A stretch of DNA of 59,687 nt from Acidimicrobiales bacterium (GTDB lineage: Bacteria; Actinomycetota; Actinomycetes; Mycobacteriales; QHCE01), in the NCBI GenBank assembly GCA_003243955.1, contig QHCE01000002.1, positions 1 to 59,687 of the forward strand. The letters are read 5' to 3'. The position numbers and the translations under genes are program-made. The first letter of the stretch is position 1; every line of letters begins with the position of its first letter. Positions 41,576-58,610 of this stretch are shown here, in pieces. The notes beneath the pieces are model-generated. The model saw nothing but the letters and a program-made list of their open reading frames with translations. It had not been told where the DNA came from and searched no databases.

Positions 41576-41695
41576 TGACGGACGAAGCCAAGCCATCCCA
41601 GCTACTATATTTAAGGCGCCCGCTTATCTACTGTAGTGCGTGCTGAAGCAACACCGAGTAGACCAGAAACATCATCAAGAAAGACGAGTTGCAAC

Positions 41696-42082
41696 GTGCC
41701 CACAGGCAAGGTCAAGTGGTATGACACCGACAAAGGTTTCGGCTTCCTGTCTCGAGACGACGGCGGCGATGTTTTCGTGCACCGCGGAGCACTGCCGTCC
41801 GGCGTTGACGAGCTCAATGTGGGCGCCCGAGTGGAATTCGGCATAGTAACCGGACGCAAAGGCGATCAAGCGTTGTCCGTGCGGGTACTGGATCCCATCC
41901 CATCCTTGAGTACAGCGCACCGCCGTCCCACCGATGAGCTACACGGCCTCATCGAGGACACGATCAAAGTGCTCGAGGCAAAGATCCAGCCAGATTTACG
42001 CCGGGGTCGATATCCGGATCGAAAAGTCGCTAGCAAACTCGCCGAGATGGTTCATGCAATCGCCCGCGAGCTAGAAGGCTAG
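41696..42082 (+). CDS. cold-shock domain protein
   Basis: GTG start; [48 protein letters not shown]. Confidence 0.93.
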
Positions 42083-42086
42083 AGCG

Positions 42087-42222
42087 CCTGCCAAAAAGCC
42101 CCTGCCGGCACCATGCGTGTGCGGGGGCACCCACACACGGGCGTTCGCCTTGCCTATGCCCGGCGTAGCTTGCGAGCCGGCAATGGGTATGGCGTAGGCG
42201 GCGGCTCCTGCGGCCTTGGCAG
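42087..42222 (-). repeat. ~136-bp structured intergenic element, copy 1
   Basis: Reverse complement ctgccaaggccgcaggagccgccgc...gccggcaggggctttttggcagg closely matches 47727-47863; terminal CTGCCAA/TTGGCAG pairing. Confidence 0.85.
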
Positions 42223-42253
42223 AAACCAATGGAGCAGGCGCTTTAAGGTCAAT

Positions 42254-43606
42254 TTACAATTCAGGCGTTCGCTGAGCCACAGTCCACAGCCGTAGAGCGG
42301 CAACTGCCGCAGCTCCCACGCATATCGCGGCAAGGCTCAGCCCCCAGTGTCCGGCAAGTGGAATGAGGCCAACGGCGCCGCCAAATACCCAAGCTAGCTG
42401 GAGCAGCGTTTCAGAGCGCCCAAACGCGCTGGCCCGATAACCTTCGTCGGCGCCCTGCGCAATCACCGCGTCCACACCCAATTTGCACAGCCCACTCGAC
42501 AGTGCGGTGATAAACGCCAGGCCGATCGCAGCCGGCAAACTGTAGGTCGCGGCAGCACCGGCACAAGCTAGCGTCGCCGCCAGCGCCGCTGCGACATGCA
42601 GTCGCAGCGGGTGACGAAGTTTGAGCCTGGTCCCCACTACAGTCGCGACTAGCGAGCCCAGCCCTAACGCACCCACAACAGCGCCTAAAGCTACTGCCGC
42701 CGGTGGGCCAAGATTGTCCTCGCGAGTACGGAACGCGAAGTACAGCGTCAAAAACCCATAGAGTGCGCGCAGCGCACTAGTGGCAACCAAAGCAGTCCAG
42801 ATCTCCGTACTGAACAGCCTTACGCTGGTCTTATGGCCGGGGAACTGGAGCATGCGCGGCAACGCCTCGGGGCGTTGCGAGTCCGCTCGCGGGGGTAGCC
42901 GAAGTGCTGAAATCATGCCTACAACGAACACTACCGCCGCGCCGCGGAGCGCCCATTCCACACCAAAATGCGCAAGCAGAACAGCCGCACCGCCAGCGAT
43001 AGCACCCGCGATCATGCCGGCCAGGGACCCTCGCGCATTGGCCTCCACCAACGTCAGGCGCTCGGGTAAAAGCCGGGGTACAGCGGCACTGCGAGCTACA
43101 CCATATGCTCGGGAGAGCACGAGCACCCCGAACGCGGCCGGATACAAAATCCAACTATGCAGCTGGCTGGCGATCAGCCATGCCAGGAATGCCCGGGCGA
43201 GCATGGTAGTGGCCAGCGCGTACCTGCGGCCGTGCCGAAAACGGTCCAGAATCGGCCCCACCGCGGGCGCTAGCAGCGCAAACGGCGCCATGGTGATCAG
43301 GAGATACAGGCCCACCTGCAGCCGGGCCTCACCCACAGGAACGTTGAAGAAAATGGTTCCGGCAAGTGCAACCGCAATCGCGGCATCACCTGCTACCGAC
43401 GCCGCATGTAGATCGATCAGGCGGTGCATGCCGGTTTGGCCCGCACCGTCGGCGTTTCGGGCTTTGATTACCCGTTCCCAGCCCCTTCGGCAGGCCTTAA
43501 CGGCTTTTCGTCCGAAGCGGCGTGCGCCGCGCAGCCGCTTGACAGGCACCGTGGGCGGCGCGGTCGGGCTGCTGCCCTGTGTAGAGTCGTCGATCATCGT
43601 GTCCAT
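42254..43606 (-). CDS. MFS-type membrane protein (Rv0876c-like)
   Basis: 450 aa multi-TM; DLHAASVAGDAAIAVALAGTIFFNVPVGEARLQVGLYLLITMAPFALLAPAVGPILDRFRHGRR. Confidence 0.88.
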   Translation of the reverse strand: MDTMIDDSTQGSSPTAPPTVPVKRLRGARRFGRKAVKACRRGWERVIKARNADGAGQTGMHRLIDLHAASVAGDAAIAVALAGTIFFNVPVGEARLQVGLYLLITMAPFALLAPAVGPILDRFRHGRRYALATTMLARAFLAWLIASQLHSWILYPAAFGVLVLSRAYGVARSAAVPRLLPERLTLVEANARGSLAGMIAGAIAGGAAVLLAHFGVEWALRGAAVVFVVGMISALRLPPRADSQRPEALPRMLQFPGHKTSVRLFSTEIWTALVATSALRALYGFLTLYFAFRTREDNLGPPAAVALGAVVGALGLGSLVATVVGTRLKLRHPLRLHVAAALAATLACAGAAATYSLPAAIGLAFITALSSGLCKLGVDAVIAQGADEGYRASAFGRSETLLQLAWVFGGAVGLIPLAGHWGLSLAAICVGAAAVAALRLWTVAQRTPEL

Positions 43607-43719
43607 GGCTGCCGCAACTTTAAGAGGTCGTGCTCCCGTTGAAATCCCTCCATCGCCCTGCTGCCCCTATGCCGCGGGTGTGGTTCTGTGAAAATGCGCA
43701 CAAAGGGGCGGGGCAGCGC

Positions 43720-44484
43720 ATGAAGAGGATGGTAGGAAAAAATACCCTGGTGAGTATTGACCTCCCGGCGCAGCCTGCCCGGTCCGCAGCGATTCGTCTC
43801 GACGCGACGTGTGCGCAAGCCGCCGATCTTGCCCGAGCGGCTCTCGTAGCCGTGGTGGGAGAAGCTTGTGTGGGTGAACATTTACAGGCGGTGGGGATCG
43901 CAGAGCGCCTTGTCGAGCATCGATTTGCGGCATTCCAGCCGGGGTACGTTGCCTGGTATTGGTCGGTGACGACCGCGCGGGCGCCGCGCGGTAAGCAGGT
44001 GACCGTCTGCGATGTGGCGTTACTGCCGGCAGAGCAGGCGCTACTAGCTCCTGCGTGGGTGCCGTGGAGCAGGCGGCTGCGACCAGGCGATGTGGGCGTG
44101 GGGGATCTACTGCCAGCTGCGGCCGATGATGAGCGGCTCGCGCCATCATTCCTGCTTCCCGAAGACGTCCCGCTTTCCGACGATAATCTTCCAAACCCCG
44201 ATGAACAAGTGGGCAAGATCCCAGGCGTAGGCCGACCTCGTGTGATGAGCGTGCTGGGCAGAGAACAAGCCGCGCAGCGCTGGTATGACTCCGATGCGGG
44301 CCCGGAAGCCCAACTAGCCAAAGCTACTCGCGAACGCTGCGGCACCTGCGGATTCTACGTACAGCTATCCGGTTCACTAGGTGCCGCGTTTGGGGCGTGC
44401 GCCAATTTGTACGCTCCCGATGACGGTAGAATCGTCAGCGCCGACCACGGTTGTGGTGCCCATTCGGAGGCAGTCGCGGTGTGA
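43720..44484 (+). CDS. DUF3027 family protein
   Basis: AADLARAALVAVVGEACVGEHL...VAWYWSVTTARAPRGKQVTVCDVALLPAEQALLAPAWVPWSRRLRPGDVGVGDLLP; C-terminal CGTCGFY zinc ribbon-like; exact start uncertain. Confidence 0.9.
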   Translation: MKRMVGKNTLVSIDLPAQPARSAAIRLDATCAQAADLARAALVAVVGEACVGEHLQAVGIAERLVEHRFAAFQPGYVAWYWSVTTARAPRGKQVTVCDVALLPAEQALLAPAWVPWSRRLRPGDVGVGDLLPAAADDERLAPSFLLPEDVPLSDDNLPNPDEQVGKIPGVGRPRVMSVLGREQAAQRWYDSDAGPEAQLAKATRERCGTCGFYVQLSGSLGAAFGACANLYAPDDGRIVSADHGCGAHSEAVAV

Positions 44485-44512
44485 TGCGCGAGCGGCACGT
44501 GGCTGTGGAGCG

Positions 44513-44758
44513 CTACTTGGGCCGTTGAGTCGCTCGCGTGATGCGTTTAGCGCCTAATGTACCCAGAATGCCGATCAATATGCCGCTATAGGCCGTGCCC
44601 AGCCACCATGTGCGTCCATGTTCGCCGAGCCAGTCCTGCCCAAACAGCGTGAGCGCGGCAGCGGCAAGCACCCAGATCAATGTGCCGACGAGGCTCACCC
44701 CTACTAGGTTGAGCTCCAGCGGGGGAGGTGGAAGTTGGGTGCGTGGCGTGTGCGGCAT
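44513..44758 (-). CDS. DUF2530 family membrane protein
   Basis: LELNLVGVSLVGTLIWVLAAAALTLFGQDWLGEHGRTWWLGTAYSGILIGILGTLGAKR. Confidence 0.8.
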   Translation of the reverse strand: MPHTPRTQLPPPPLELNLVGVSLVGTLIWVLAAAALTLFGQDWLGEHGRTWWLGTAYSGILIGILGTLGAKRITRATQRPK

Positions 44759-44836
44759 GGGCTCACGTTAGCCGATATCGTGGCACACTATTCGACGATA
44801 GGTCCGTAAAGCTTCCCGAGGTATCGGAGATGGCAG

Positions 44837-45445
44837 TTGGCCAGCGTGGTGCTTCCTGTGGGGCACGTCTTGGGCCCGTTCTTCACCGATGAGCACGCCG
44901 AGATTCCAGAATCCGTCGATATTCGGCTCGGCGAGGAACTGATCTCCATTCCCTCGGGCGCCTACGCGGTTTGGGCGGCCGCACACGGCGAGCCTGGGGT
45001 AGACAGCGGGATGCCGCGGGCCGCAACGATCGCCGCCGCGGCGCAGCTGGTCGATGAGCCGGATCGGTGGTTTGACCAACTCACCGCGCGGAGCCTGTTG
45101 GTCGAACTGCCCGACACTCCCCAGGCGCGACAGCGTTTTGCCCGTTCGCATCGGGTGCTGCCGCTGGCCCTGGGCCTGGGGAATTCGGCGGAACATCCGG
45201 ATCGGTTTATAGTGGGAATGGTGGGTGCTCCAGCGGTTACGCTGCCCGCTTCGGCGTTTTTGGCCTGGATGTTTGGCCATCGCTACCCCAGTTTGTGGCA
45301 GACGTGCGAGAATGTAGTGAATACGACACAGCTCATGATTGGTGCGGAAGTGGATCCAGCCGCCGTACTGGCAGACGTGATCACGCTCCTATCACCGCTG
45401 CTGGTCCACGGATGCGCGTGCCTAGATCGGAGGACCGATGGTTGA
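44837..45445 (+). CDS. uncharacterised family, paralog A of three
   Basis: PVGHVLGPFFT...SGAYAVWAAAHG...FARSHRVLPLALGLGNSAEHPDRFIVGMVGAP...SLW shared with 46163 and 46936 ORFs. Confidence 0.85.
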   Translation: MASVVLPVGHVLGPFFTDEHAEIPESVDIRLGEELISIPSGAYAVWAAAHGEPGVDSGMPRAATIAAAAQLVDEPDRWFDQLTARSLLVELPDTPQARQRFARSHRVLPLALGLGNSAEHPDRFIVGMVGAPAVTLPASAFLAWMFGHRYPSLWQTCENVVNTTQLMIGAEVDPAAVLADVITLLSPLLVHGCACLDRRTDG

Positions 45446-46163
45446 GGAAGCCCTCCCGGTGGCTGAGGGAGCGCCCCCGGTGCGGCCGGCACGCTCCTTG
45501 TGGCTGCACCGATTGCTGTATTCGTTTGTTCCTGCTGCCGGCTCCGCCGGTGCGGTGGGCGGGGCGATAGGGGGCGCTTATGGAGGCATCGCGGGCGCCG
45601 CATTGGGCATGACCATAGGCGTTATGGGCAGTATTGGACTATACGCCGCAATAAGAGCATACAAAGACCATAAAGAGCACACGGAGCATCTAGTAGAGCT
45701 TCACAAGCAGTTCCCTAACGACCCCGAAGGTTTACACGCTGCGGTGAAAGCGGAGCGGGGGAAACACCGCCTCCAGAGGGTGCTGGGCACCGGAATTGTG
45801 GCCGGGGCAATGGGGATAACCGGTATCGGTGTCCCAGCCATGACGGCGCTGCCCGCGCTCGCAGTGGGCGCTGCGGCGCTAGGCGCAGCCTACCTGGCTA
45901 CTCGGGCATTCCTCGCGGGCAAAAACCGCTTGACCGATCCCAAACACCTCCGGAATGCCGAGGCCGGAGGGGTTCCGGAGGCAGATCCCGAAGAGGCTCC
46001 GGACAATTCCGATCAACCACGGGTAAATCAGCCGTTTGCGGCAAGGTTTAGCGATAGGGAGGTAATCCCTCCTCCCAGCGCTCATACGCAGCCCAGCCCT
46101 CAATATCCATCTTTACCTGCCGGTATGCAGCGGCCCGTTTCAGCTGCGCATGGCCGCGGTTGA
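45438..46163 (+). CDS. glycine-rich membrane protein with proline-rich C-terminus
   Basis: AGSAGAVGGAIGGAYGGIAGAALGMTIGVMGSIGLYAAI and GTGIVAGAMGITGIGVPAMTALPALAVGAAALGAAYLATRAF; overlaps neighbours at both ends. Confidence 0.85.
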   Translation: MVEEALPVAEGAPPVRPARSLWLHRLLYSFVPAAGSAGAVGGAIGGAYGGIAGAALGMTIGVMGSIGLYAAIRAYKDHKEHTEHLVELHKQFPNDPEGLHAAVKAERGKHRLQRVLGTGIVAGAMGITGIGVPAMTALPALAVGAAALGAAYLATRAFLAGKNRLTDPKHLRNAEAGGVPEADPEEAPDNSDQPRVNQPFAARFSDREVIPPPSAHTQPSPQYPSLPAGMQRPVSAAHGRG

Positions 46164-46786
46164 TGGCCTTTCCTGTGGTTGCTCCGTTGGTTCCGATTGG
46201 CCAGTTTATTGGCACCATGTTTGCTGGTCCTGTGCCTGCCTCTAACACTGCTGGCCAGGCGCAAAGCTGGGGCTACGGGGTTAGGCTCGGAACGGAGCTG
46301 GAAGACCTGAACGAGTCGGAATTCGGCATCTGGGCGCTCTCGCACGGCACCGGAAACGATAAGGTGAACACCGCATCGCGGGGCGCCGTAGAAAAGCTTG
46401 CCAGACAGTTGGACATTGCCGATGCGCAGCATAGTACCGATGCCTTGCTGCAGCGTGGCCTGCTGGCGCGGGTGCTCCCGGTGGCGGCGCAGGCTCGCGG
46501 ATTCGCCCAACATCACCAGCTCATGCCACTGGGCATGGGGCTAGGTAACAGCGCCAGCGCGTTGGGGGCATTCACCATTGGTCAGCCAGGGTTTCCTCGA
46601 GCAACAGTGAGCGCGGTCATTTTCGATGTCTGGGCATTCAGCGCACAGGGCGCTTCGCTCTGGCAAGCGTGCGAGAAAACCGCGGATTGGGGGGAGGAAC
46701 TCACCCCGGAGAGTCTCGCGCTACTGGTGCTGCAAGCGTTGCCGGTGCTGCTGGCCACCGACGCGGCCTACATAGACGTGTGCTGA
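46163..46786 (+). CDS. uncharacterised family, paralog C of three
   Basis: PIGQFIGTMFAG...ESEFGIWALSHG...FAQHHQLMPLGMGLGNSASALGAFTIGQPGFP...SLWQAC. Confidence 0.85.
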   Translation: MAFPVVAPLVPIGQFIGTMFAGPVPASNTAGQAQSWGYGVRLGTELEDLNESEFGIWALSHGTGNDKVNTASRGAVEKLARQLDIADAQHSTDALLQRGLLARVLPVAAQARGFAQHHQLMPLGMGLGNSASALGAFTIGQPGFPRATVSAVIFDVWAFSAQGASLWQACEKTADWGEELTPESLALLVLQALPVLLATDAAYIDVC

Positions 46787-46935
46787 GCAAGTTCTGCCAG
46801 ACAAGTACTGTCCAGTATAGGAAACTGCGACCCCGTAGAATCTCAGCACAAATCGCCGGGTGTTCTTGCCCATCGTATAGTGCATTCGAGTAGGCTCAGC
46901 AGAATATGTAGTTGCGCTTATAGGAGGTCGGCAAC

Positions 46936-47583
46936 GTGGTTGCTCTAGTTGTGCCGGTTGGGCATTTTGCCGGCCCCATGCACACGTCCACCGAGGCTGA
47001 GGTTCCAGAATCGTTTGAGGTTCGGTTCCGTGACGGTGTGTTTTCGCTGTCTGCCGAGGAATACGCGGTGTGGGCGGTCTCGCATGGTGATCCGGAAAAA
47101 GTCTCCAAGCAGCCGCAGTCGCGCCCGGTGGTTGAAGGCGCCGCCAAGGCGGCGGGTGTGGACGAGCCCGGCCCGATCTTTGATTCGCTGATCGACGATG
47201 GCTTACTGGTCTCGGTGATGCCTACCGGTAAATCGAGCCAAACGTTCGCTGAGCAGCATCAGATGGTGCCGTTGGCGCTGGGTCTGGGTAACAGTGCGCA
47301 GAACCCGGCCGAGTTCCAAATTGGGTTGCCCAACGCCCCCAGGGTTTCAGTGGGTTATGACGTTTACCATATGTGGCTGTTCTGCCACCGGCAGCCCACT
47401 TTGTGGGAAGCGATCACCACCATCGCCAAGGAAGCCGAGGAAGCCAACACCGAAGAGCCCAACGCTGAAGGTGAGGAGAAAGTTGAGCTGGTCTCCGATC
47501 CGGATGTCCTCCTCAAGGCGCTACTAGCGGCACTACCGGTGTTGATCTCCACTAGCTGCGTATTCATAGACCGCAGGCCGTAG
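46936..47583 (+). CDS. uncharacterised family, paralog D of three
   Basis: PVGHFAGPMHTSTEAEVPESFEVRF...AEEYAVWAVSHG...FAEQHQMVPLALGLGNSAQNPAEFQIGLPNAP...TLWEA. Confidence 0.88.
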   Translation: MVALVVPVGHFAGPMHTSTEAEVPESFEVRFRDGVFSLSAEEYAVWAVSHGDPEKVSKQPQSRPVVEGAAKAAGVDEPGPIFDSLIDDGLLVSVMPTGKSSQTFAEQHQMVPLALGLGNSAQNPAEFQIGLPNAPRVSVGYDVYHMWLFCHRQPTLWEAITTIAKEAEEANTEEPNAEGEEKVELVSDPDVLLKALLAALPVLISTSCVFIDRRP

Positions 47584-47726
47584 CAGAGGAATGTGTTTTA
47601 GTTAGCGCTTAAGTAAGCTCCATACCTCTCAAAGGTCTGGTATTTTCGCCTGGCTTAGCTCTTACACCTTAGAGGCTCCGCCGCTGAGCCGATTGTCGCG
47701 ATCTAACTCGATCAGCAAACGTGCAT

Positions 47727-47863
47727 CTGCCAAGGCCGCAGGAGCCGCCGCGTGCGCTCTACCTATGCCCGACTTGCAAGCTGCGTCGGGCGCAGGCAAG
47801 GCGACTGCCCGGGTGGCGGGTGCCCCGCCGCTAGCACAGCGCCGGCAGGGACTTTTTGGCGGG
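47727..47863 (+). repeat. ~137-bp structured intergenic element, copy 2
   Basis: ctgccaaggccgcaggagccgccgc...gccggcagggactttttggcggg; homologous to the reverse complement of 42087-42222. Confidence 0.85.
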
Positions 47864-47931
47864 CCCTCTTATGCGTGTGCCAAATTTTCTAACCCGTAGT
47901 TTGGCGTGCCGATTCGTGGCAAGCTAACCAG

Positions 47932-58398: not shown

Positions 58399-58546
58399 AC
58401 TAACGCATGCAGGGGTTGGCCTGCACTAAACAGCTCAAAATGCAGCTCAATGTCAGCGCGATGGTGCGGCATCTAACCTCTGCTTCGAGACCTGTAATCC
58501 ACATGTTCACTGGGTACTATTGAAACCTTTGGGTTGCACCAGGCAT

Positions 58547-58581
58547 GCCAATGGGGACGGAAAGCATCCGTCCCCATTGGC
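58547..58581. terminator. strong hairpin downstream of groEL
   Basis: gccaatggggacgga-aagca-tccgtccccattggc, 15-bp perfect stem. Confidence 0.85.
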
Positions 58582-58610
58582 GAAATAACTATGCCTTAAC
58601 TACTGTTGCC

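Follow-up and report, generated by a model that had tools for sequence, protein, structure and literature searches.

We analysed a 59,687-nt stretch of the genome of an Acidimicrobiales bacterium (contig QHCE01000002.1, positions 1–59,687; hereafter the window), in which two copies of an intergenic hairpin element lie in inverted orientation at about 42.1 and 47.8 kb. The reverse complement of 42087–42222 aligns end to end with 47727–47863, with 109 of 137 positions identical, one gap and no difference over the first 25 nt. This agrees with the initial annotation of the pair as nearly gap-free, and the conserved blocks listed there are present. Its boundaries hold for the similarity and not as limits of the element, as the outer arms were cut off; the whole elements extend over approximately 42079–42246 (copy 1) and 47668–47871 (copy 2). 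Both belong to a larger family of hairpin-forming repeats, with about 66 copies in this genome, which was searched over 2.42 Mb in 91 contigs.

The size of the family is seen by three types of search. Using blastn, as the initial annotation had suggested, copies are found at 46 places at E ≤ 1e-3. When as many as three mismatches are allowed, the 25-mer core is matched 56 times, including 30 exact matches, and the reversed control 0 times. At E ≤ 0.1, a covariance model recovers 66 copies. With about 66 copies in 2.42 Mb, a distance of 5.5 kb between two of them is nothing unusual and defines no block, so that a composite element delimited by the pair is rejected and the 5.5-kb "block" that it had been said to flank is a coincidence of spacing.

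Each copy forms a single long irregular hairpin with a unit length of 105–165 nt, described here from the outside inwards on the strand bearing CTGCC (strand A). Outer arms of about 18–20 bp and a small internal loop (often gcat/gga) precede the helix P1, CTGCC/GGCAG, for which the compensatory variants CTGGC/GCCAG and CGC/GCG occur among the copies. Inside P1, an AA bulge is followed by GGC/GCC and by the internal loop CGCA/GAGAAC, the latter being replaced in about one quarter of the copies by an extra hairpin module (CTGCCCGGGTGCGGGTGCCCCGCACAAGCACAGC). The GGGTGCCCC hairpin of the initial annotation does exist, as an optional module of about one quarter of the copies and not as a general feature. 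Further inwards lie the helix GGAGCC/GGCGAC with a tandem G.A step, the loop GCC/AA and a variable apical hairpin (CTAC..GTAG, GTAC..GTAC or GTGC..GCAC). The strands of the G.A helix are swapped (GGCGAC/GGAGCC) at three loci (L028+, L077 and L079), an exchange that supports this register; the other possible register, CGCC/GGCG, is the one preferred by energy folding. The outer arms are locus-specific in their letters, yet they pair.

Copy 1 lies on the minus strand, where the R1 covariance model matches 42080–42244 (68.2 bits, E = 6e-16) and the core, from CTGCC to GGCAG, occupies 42102–42222. Its 5′ outer arm TTAAAGCGCCTGCTCCA (42230–42246, minus strand) pairs partially with its 3′ outer arm TTTGGCAGGCGCTCTAG (42079–42095, minus strand), which includes the stop codon (42080–42082) of a convergent cold-shock-domain gene (41696–42082, or 41636–42082 in a longer call, plus strand; Pfam CSD, E = 9e-18). 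Copy 2 lies on the plus strand, with an R1 match at 47705–47870 (57 bits, E = 1e-12) and its core at 47727–47848. The AA bulge of its CTGCC-AA-GGC (47732–47733) is the most conserved non-paired feature, found as GCAAGGC in nearly all copies and phylum-wide. The tandem G.A step is made up of GGAGCC (47741–47746) and GGCGAC (47800–47805), and the 3′ outer arm region (GGACTTTTTGGCGGGCCCTCTTA) follows at 47849–47871. The 5′ outer arm of this copy (CTTAGAGGCTCCGCC; 47668–47683) is displaced; it resembles the arms of other copies and its motif is that of copy L074. The 43-nt segment between this arm and the core (47684–47726), common to copies on contigs C38 and C7, reads CTGAGCCGATTGTCG.GATCTA.CTCGATCA.CGAACGTG. 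It lies directly 5′ of the core in three copies (the one in the window, L016 and L068), where it displaces the usual 5′ arm and is possibly a second small repeat.

The claim that differences between copies respect the pairing is borne out by double changes in three sequence sets, each compared with shuffles. In 43 copies of this genome, double changes are observed at all 18 arm pairs, with both sides varying, and every whole-structure measure lies above 500 of 500 shuffles and above slid controls. Double-change cells number 169 in these copies, against 91 in shuffles (0/500). The corresponding values are 378 against 126 for 47 distinct sequences from other genera and 313 against 88 for 34 sequences of the wider class and phylum (0/500 in both), the last two alignments being fitted to the model and thus biased towards it. 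Arms of the same copy pair far better than arms swapped between copies (mean score 11.7 versus 4.9), with 34 of 54 above the 95% point. At sites conserved in related genomes, the arms have changed in a compensatory manner on both sides, by one C-G to T-A change at nusB/bldD (L091/L129, named from a reading of the translated flanks) and by two double changes at L123/L134.

Covariation of the arms could also be mutational rather than selective. Template switching in quasi-palindromes, a process in which one arm can be rewritten from the other and covariation arises without selection, is documented in PMC8794818. In G444 and G462, two genomes with relatives of the repeat, single copies carry identical off-consensus letters on both arms, as template switching predicts, and the tandem G.A is turned into perfect pairs in L031, L047 and L082. 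On the other hand, correction of this kind would remove the AA bulge and the tandem G.A, both of which are kept unpaired throughout the phylum, and template switching leaves the placement and orientation at stop codons unexplained. This origin of the arm covariation, which could also be a partial one, is possible though less likely than not, and is compatible with the reading that we favour below. Since template switching could produce covariation, we do not rest function on arm covariation alone; the phylum-wide persistence of the bulge and the G.A step, both of which correction should erase, is better evidence of a selected fold.

The copies are placed non-randomly with respect to genes, which were called in this genome with a home-made caller (coding fraction 0.78). 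Relative to strand A, the 62 copies include 27 with both neighbours antiparallel, 14 in convergent gaps, 14 with both neighbours in the sense of strand A (a class in which starts are partly misplaced by the caller) and 2 in divergent gaps; all gaps of the genome give 99, 44, 106 and 42 in the same order. The 3′ end of strand A lies within −8 to +6 nt of an antiparallel stop codon in 28 of the 62 copies, compared with 6 for the other side. TAG stops are enriched at these contacts (16/28 versus 54/162, p = 0.02). For an independent set of 46 copies of other genera, analysed with its own trained caller, the classes are 22, 11, 4 and 3. Of the 45 right-hand genes that were callable in this set, 38 are antiparallel, and their stop is found mostly at −19 to +8 nt, or at +26 where an end resembling that of a miniature inverted-repeat transposable element (MITE) adds about 28 nt. 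In pooled co-directional gaps, both neighbours are antiparallel to strand A 49 times and in its sense 18 times (p = 2e-4). The mRNA of the abutting gene therefore carries the strand opposite to CTGCC, from its stop codon on.

In the window, copy 1 indeed follows a major facilitator superfamily (MFS) gene in CTGCC sense, as had been annotated; this orientation does not extend to the family, most copies being reversed. At its other end, copy 1 abuts the stop codon (42082) of the cold-shock gene, which is convergent, and this antiparallel contact is the general rule.

The genes that abut a copy, with short names derived from Pfam domains, include rpsS, rpoA, rplK, rpsR, pnp, a ribosome-hibernation factor, carD, ispF, ftsH, ftsQ, pyrH, uvrB, gpsA, hemD, a Crp-like regulator and the cold-shock gene of the window. 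Intra-operonic copies are found in rpsS–rplV and rpoA–rplQ and after rplK, rpsR, pyrH, ispF and ftsQ. As the neighbours of several of these genes are normally co-transcribed, a strong terminator at these positions would be costly. In G001, which represents the sister genus and is the sole other genome of the window's family examined, no copies are found. Relative to this genome, the gap is longer by 88 nt at rpsS–rplV and by 122 nt at rpoA–rplQ, and no comparable hairpin is present in the two G001 gaps, so that, compared with the sister genus, element and arms together constitute an insertion. The lack of a comparable hairpin at these two sites in the sister genus, together with the rarity of plain hairpins in the genome studied here, speaks against insertion of the core alone into ready-made terminator hairpins.

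Some positions recur between genomes. A copy follows carD in the same orientation in four genomes, namely this one (where it is degenerate, 36.8 bits), two Frankiales metagenome-assembled genomes (MAGs) and G310, from another family. Similarly, the gap between rpoA and rplQ holds a copy both in this genome and in the distant G428, with the orientation unchanged; none is found between these genes in G001, G156 and G274. Such recurrence implies either that some of the sites are old or that there is a preference for the ends of certain genes.

Comparison with Rfam, as proposed in the initial annotation, gave no family match at the gathering score; below the cut-off, only weak matches at chance level appear, mostly to eukaryotic microRNA models. 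A likeness of GCAAGGCCG to the twister-sister ribozyme was considered and rejected, with no such Rfam match even at E ≤ 10. Of the candidates listed there (a new structured RNA, a specialised terminator or 3′-untranslated-region element, and a MITE-like dispersed repeat), these results confirm a dispersed repeat located at 3′ ends, with genuine covariation of its structure: further copies are numerous, pairing is kept and no Rfam family is hit, and nothing was found of what had been named as evidence against a new element (an Rfam hit, lack of further copies or lack of covariation).

Scanning 84,980 species genomes with the core pattern identified true relatives, taken as the core together with GCAAGGCGACGAGAACG and pairing arms, only in the Frankiales MAGs BP_195, BP_197 and LS_FP_2_bin.126; the remaining matches are without the second half and look like chance. 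The R1 model detects 37 copies in G156 and 45 in G274. A second model, R2, built from other genera, has matches in at least 72 of 395 genomes of the class and at least 23 of 297 genomes of the phylum, both being minimum values, as only a small number of candidates was scored in each genome. Among the 34 best-scoring matches, which are top matches rather than a random draw, a pattern count finds CAAGGC/T on the 5′ side in 30 and AACGNNG on the 3′ side in 32. The unpaired features kept across the phylum are CAAGGC and AACGCMGC. The core differs between genera, with CTGCC in this genome and CTGGC in the Frankiales MAGs. A literature search by theme and by sequence string, with most subscription journals outside its coverage, returned no earlier description of the repeat. 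The element, which is related to hairpins across actinobacteria, thus appears to be undescribed so far.

In several genomes the relatives take forms that suggest mobility, and many of them are embedded in MITE-like palindromes. Full palindromes resembling MITEs, with near-identical copies, are present in G274, G444 and G462. Direct TNA repeats, read by eye, flank about six of ten copies in G274, copies with CTAGGGTGTGTCTCCC ends in G444 and G462 share terminal inverted repeats, and CTAGTG/CTAGGG ends are observed in other genera. In G156, a related hairpin forms tandem arrays of about 110-nt units that start at a TGA stop codon (for example L253). The near-identical copies and the tandem arrays point to mobile or amplifying forms. 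G462 (contig C1) and G444 also contain palindromes of 41–93 nt with the same AGGGTGTGTCTCCC ends, which are probably internal deletions without the core. An origin from plasmids was tried for the element, and one from plasmids or phages for a relative, with no match.

Elsewhere in the window, three similar genes of about 205 aa (44837–45445, 46160–46786 and 46936–47583, plus strand) lie between the two copies; neither these nor a 241-aa neighbour have a Pfam match. An Rfam ALIL pseudoknot (RF01497, 53.8 bits) at 101–229 on the minus strand corresponds to the frameshift signal of IS3-type insertion sequences (IS) and places an IS3-family element at the contig end. A plain perfect hairpin without the core, TGCCAATGGGGAC..GTCCCCATTGGC (58546–58582), is similar to the arms of some copies. 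Other long inverted repeats, at 33.7 and 52.3 kb, are not copies.

With moderate confidence, we favour the reading that the element is a non-autonomous hairpin repeat of mRNA 3′ ends, akin to MITEs and to repetitive extragenic palindromic (REP) sequences, with a functional apex, kept at stop codons and forming an mRNA-end barrier rather than a strong terminator. The functional unit would be the folded apex, in which a GC-AA-GGC bulge faces GCC-GC and is followed by the GGAG/CGAC tandem-G.A step; because the outer arms would only need to pair, their letters drift by locus. Copies may be spread by a putative enzyme and retained immediately at stop codons, such that the CTGCC strand runs antisense to the abutted gene. 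The mRNA of the upstream gene would then carry the opposite strand as a long hairpin beginning at the stop codon. Like REPs, this hairpin most likely forms a barrier at the 3′ end or between cistrons, by which the message of the upstream gene would be protected and expression across the gap would be tuned. Copy number, structure, covariation, placement, orientation and the insertion compared with the sister genus are direct observations; present-day mobility, action as RNA and the protective role are inferred.

Several observations weigh against this reading. None of eight genomes, with or without the repeat, has the Y1_Tnp domain (PF01797), the controls being positive, which rejects mobilisation by REP-associated tyrosine transposases (RAYTs), and IS630-type mobilisation is rejected in this genome, where no DDE_3 is found. 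No autonomous copy of 1–2 kb with matching ends is present in G444 or G462. The check for target-site duplications that had been suggested for the ends gave no convincing example of 2–8 nt in this genome, with no excess beyond 3–4 of 41 three-base matches. The strict stop-codon contact and the recurrence at carD and rpoA suggest a selected function at particular genes over a selfish repeat. In co-directional gaps of the main type, moreover, neither neighbour transcribes the CTGCC strand, so that either strand might be the one that folds.

In Escherichia coli, REPs situated near stop codons reportedly influence translation and the stability of mRNA. The present repeat resembles the REPs and bacterial interspersed mosaic elements (BIMEs) of enterobacteria and pseudomonads, which are associated with RAYT transposases, in its many palindromic intergenic copies at 3′ ends and inside operons, in its rarity in divergent gaps (2 of 62 copies) and in being expected to fold in mRNA. 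By analogy, we infer a 3′-end or intercistronic role similar to that proposed for REPs. The actinobacterial unit measures 105–165 nt, whereas REPs are short palindromes of 20–40 nt with a GTAG or CGTC tag in the definition given in PMC3733652, and it has no such constant tag beside the stem. It further differs in being without Y1/RAYT in the eight tested genomes, in its fixed orientation at stop codons and in its locus-specific arms.

The intergenic repeat units (IRUs) of enterobacteria, or enterobacterial repetitive intergenic consensus (ERIC) sequences, are imperfect palindromes of about 127 nt at transcribed intergenic positions, with optional internal modules. By this description our repeat is similar in length class, imperfect palindromy, transcribed intergenic sites and optional modules; in contrast, its arms vary at every locus and it belongs to another phylum. 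Rfam families, including actinobacterial noncoding RNAs and ribozymes, share with it a conserved hairpin with internal loops, with no match at the gathering score. Integron attC sites, which belong to integrase-linked cassette arrays, are likewise structured and located after stop codons, but have conserved outer core sites, the reverse of the variable outer ends and conserved apex observed here.

The main rival is a conserved cis-acting RNA, an immobile regulatory or processing element of mRNA 3′ ends that is selected at particular genes and whose apex binds a protein or nuclease. It would account for the fixed-orientation contact with stop codons in many genera, for the shared sites after carD in four genomes and at rpoA–rplQ in two, and for the unpaired AA bulge and tandem G.A being conserved throughout the phylum. 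Such an RNA is more difficult to reconcile with the patchy distribution, the repeat being absent from G001 and from most genomes of the class and phylum, with cores that are alike within a genome and vary by genus, and with near-identical copies and tandem arrays in some genomes. We consider it possible but doubtful.

Ordinary IS-derived MITE remnants with IS5- or IS630-like ends, TNA or TA targets and no role of their own are an unlikely explanation. The TNA repeats in G274, the CTAGTG/CTAGGG ends in other genera and the enrichment of TAG stops at contacts are in its favour, and, as in IS5-/IS630-type MITEs, the palindromes that enclose the relatives in G274, G444, G462 and G073 have terminal inverted repeats and flanks of TNA- or CTAG-like type. 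However, it is the apex that is conserved while the ends vary by genus and locus, opposite to what holds for a MITE bound by its transposase; this genome has no DDE_3, and its copies have neither target duplications nor terminal inverted repeats in common, the arms differing at every locus.

A family of bidirectional intrinsic terminators, in which a long hairpin stops RNA polymerase between genes, is very unlikely: the location of 14 of 62 copies in convergent gaps and of only 2 in divergent ones and the scarcity of other strong plain hairpins in the sampled genome are consistent with it, but copies lie inside rpsS–rplV and rpoA–rplQ and after rplK, rpsR and pyrH, no U-tract follows the arms, and a terminator would not need the conserved apex. 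The specialised terminator of the initial annotation is weakened by the same copies in essential operons and by the missing U-tract; the T5 noted there belongs to an arm, which in many copies reads AAAAAG/CTTTTT, and is no terminator U-tract.

A broader proposal, which we put forward only tentatively, is that these repeats represent an undescribed actinobacteria-wide class of hairpins whose folded form, as RNA or single-stranded DNA, would be recognised by a dedicated factor, placed or kept in one orientation exactly at stops, and used for shared control of mRNA 3′ ends at genes such as carD, rpoA and those of ribosomal proteins. If the favoured reading is correct, REP-like 3′-end repeats would extend to actinobacteria, in a form that has no RAYT, whose irregular apex is conserved and whose arms are specific to the locus. 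The rule of orientation at the stop codon would lead to a testable mechanism, either orientation-specific insertion or selection on the mRNA end, and the family would offer a clean natural case in which to separate selection from template switching as the cause of hairpin covariation.

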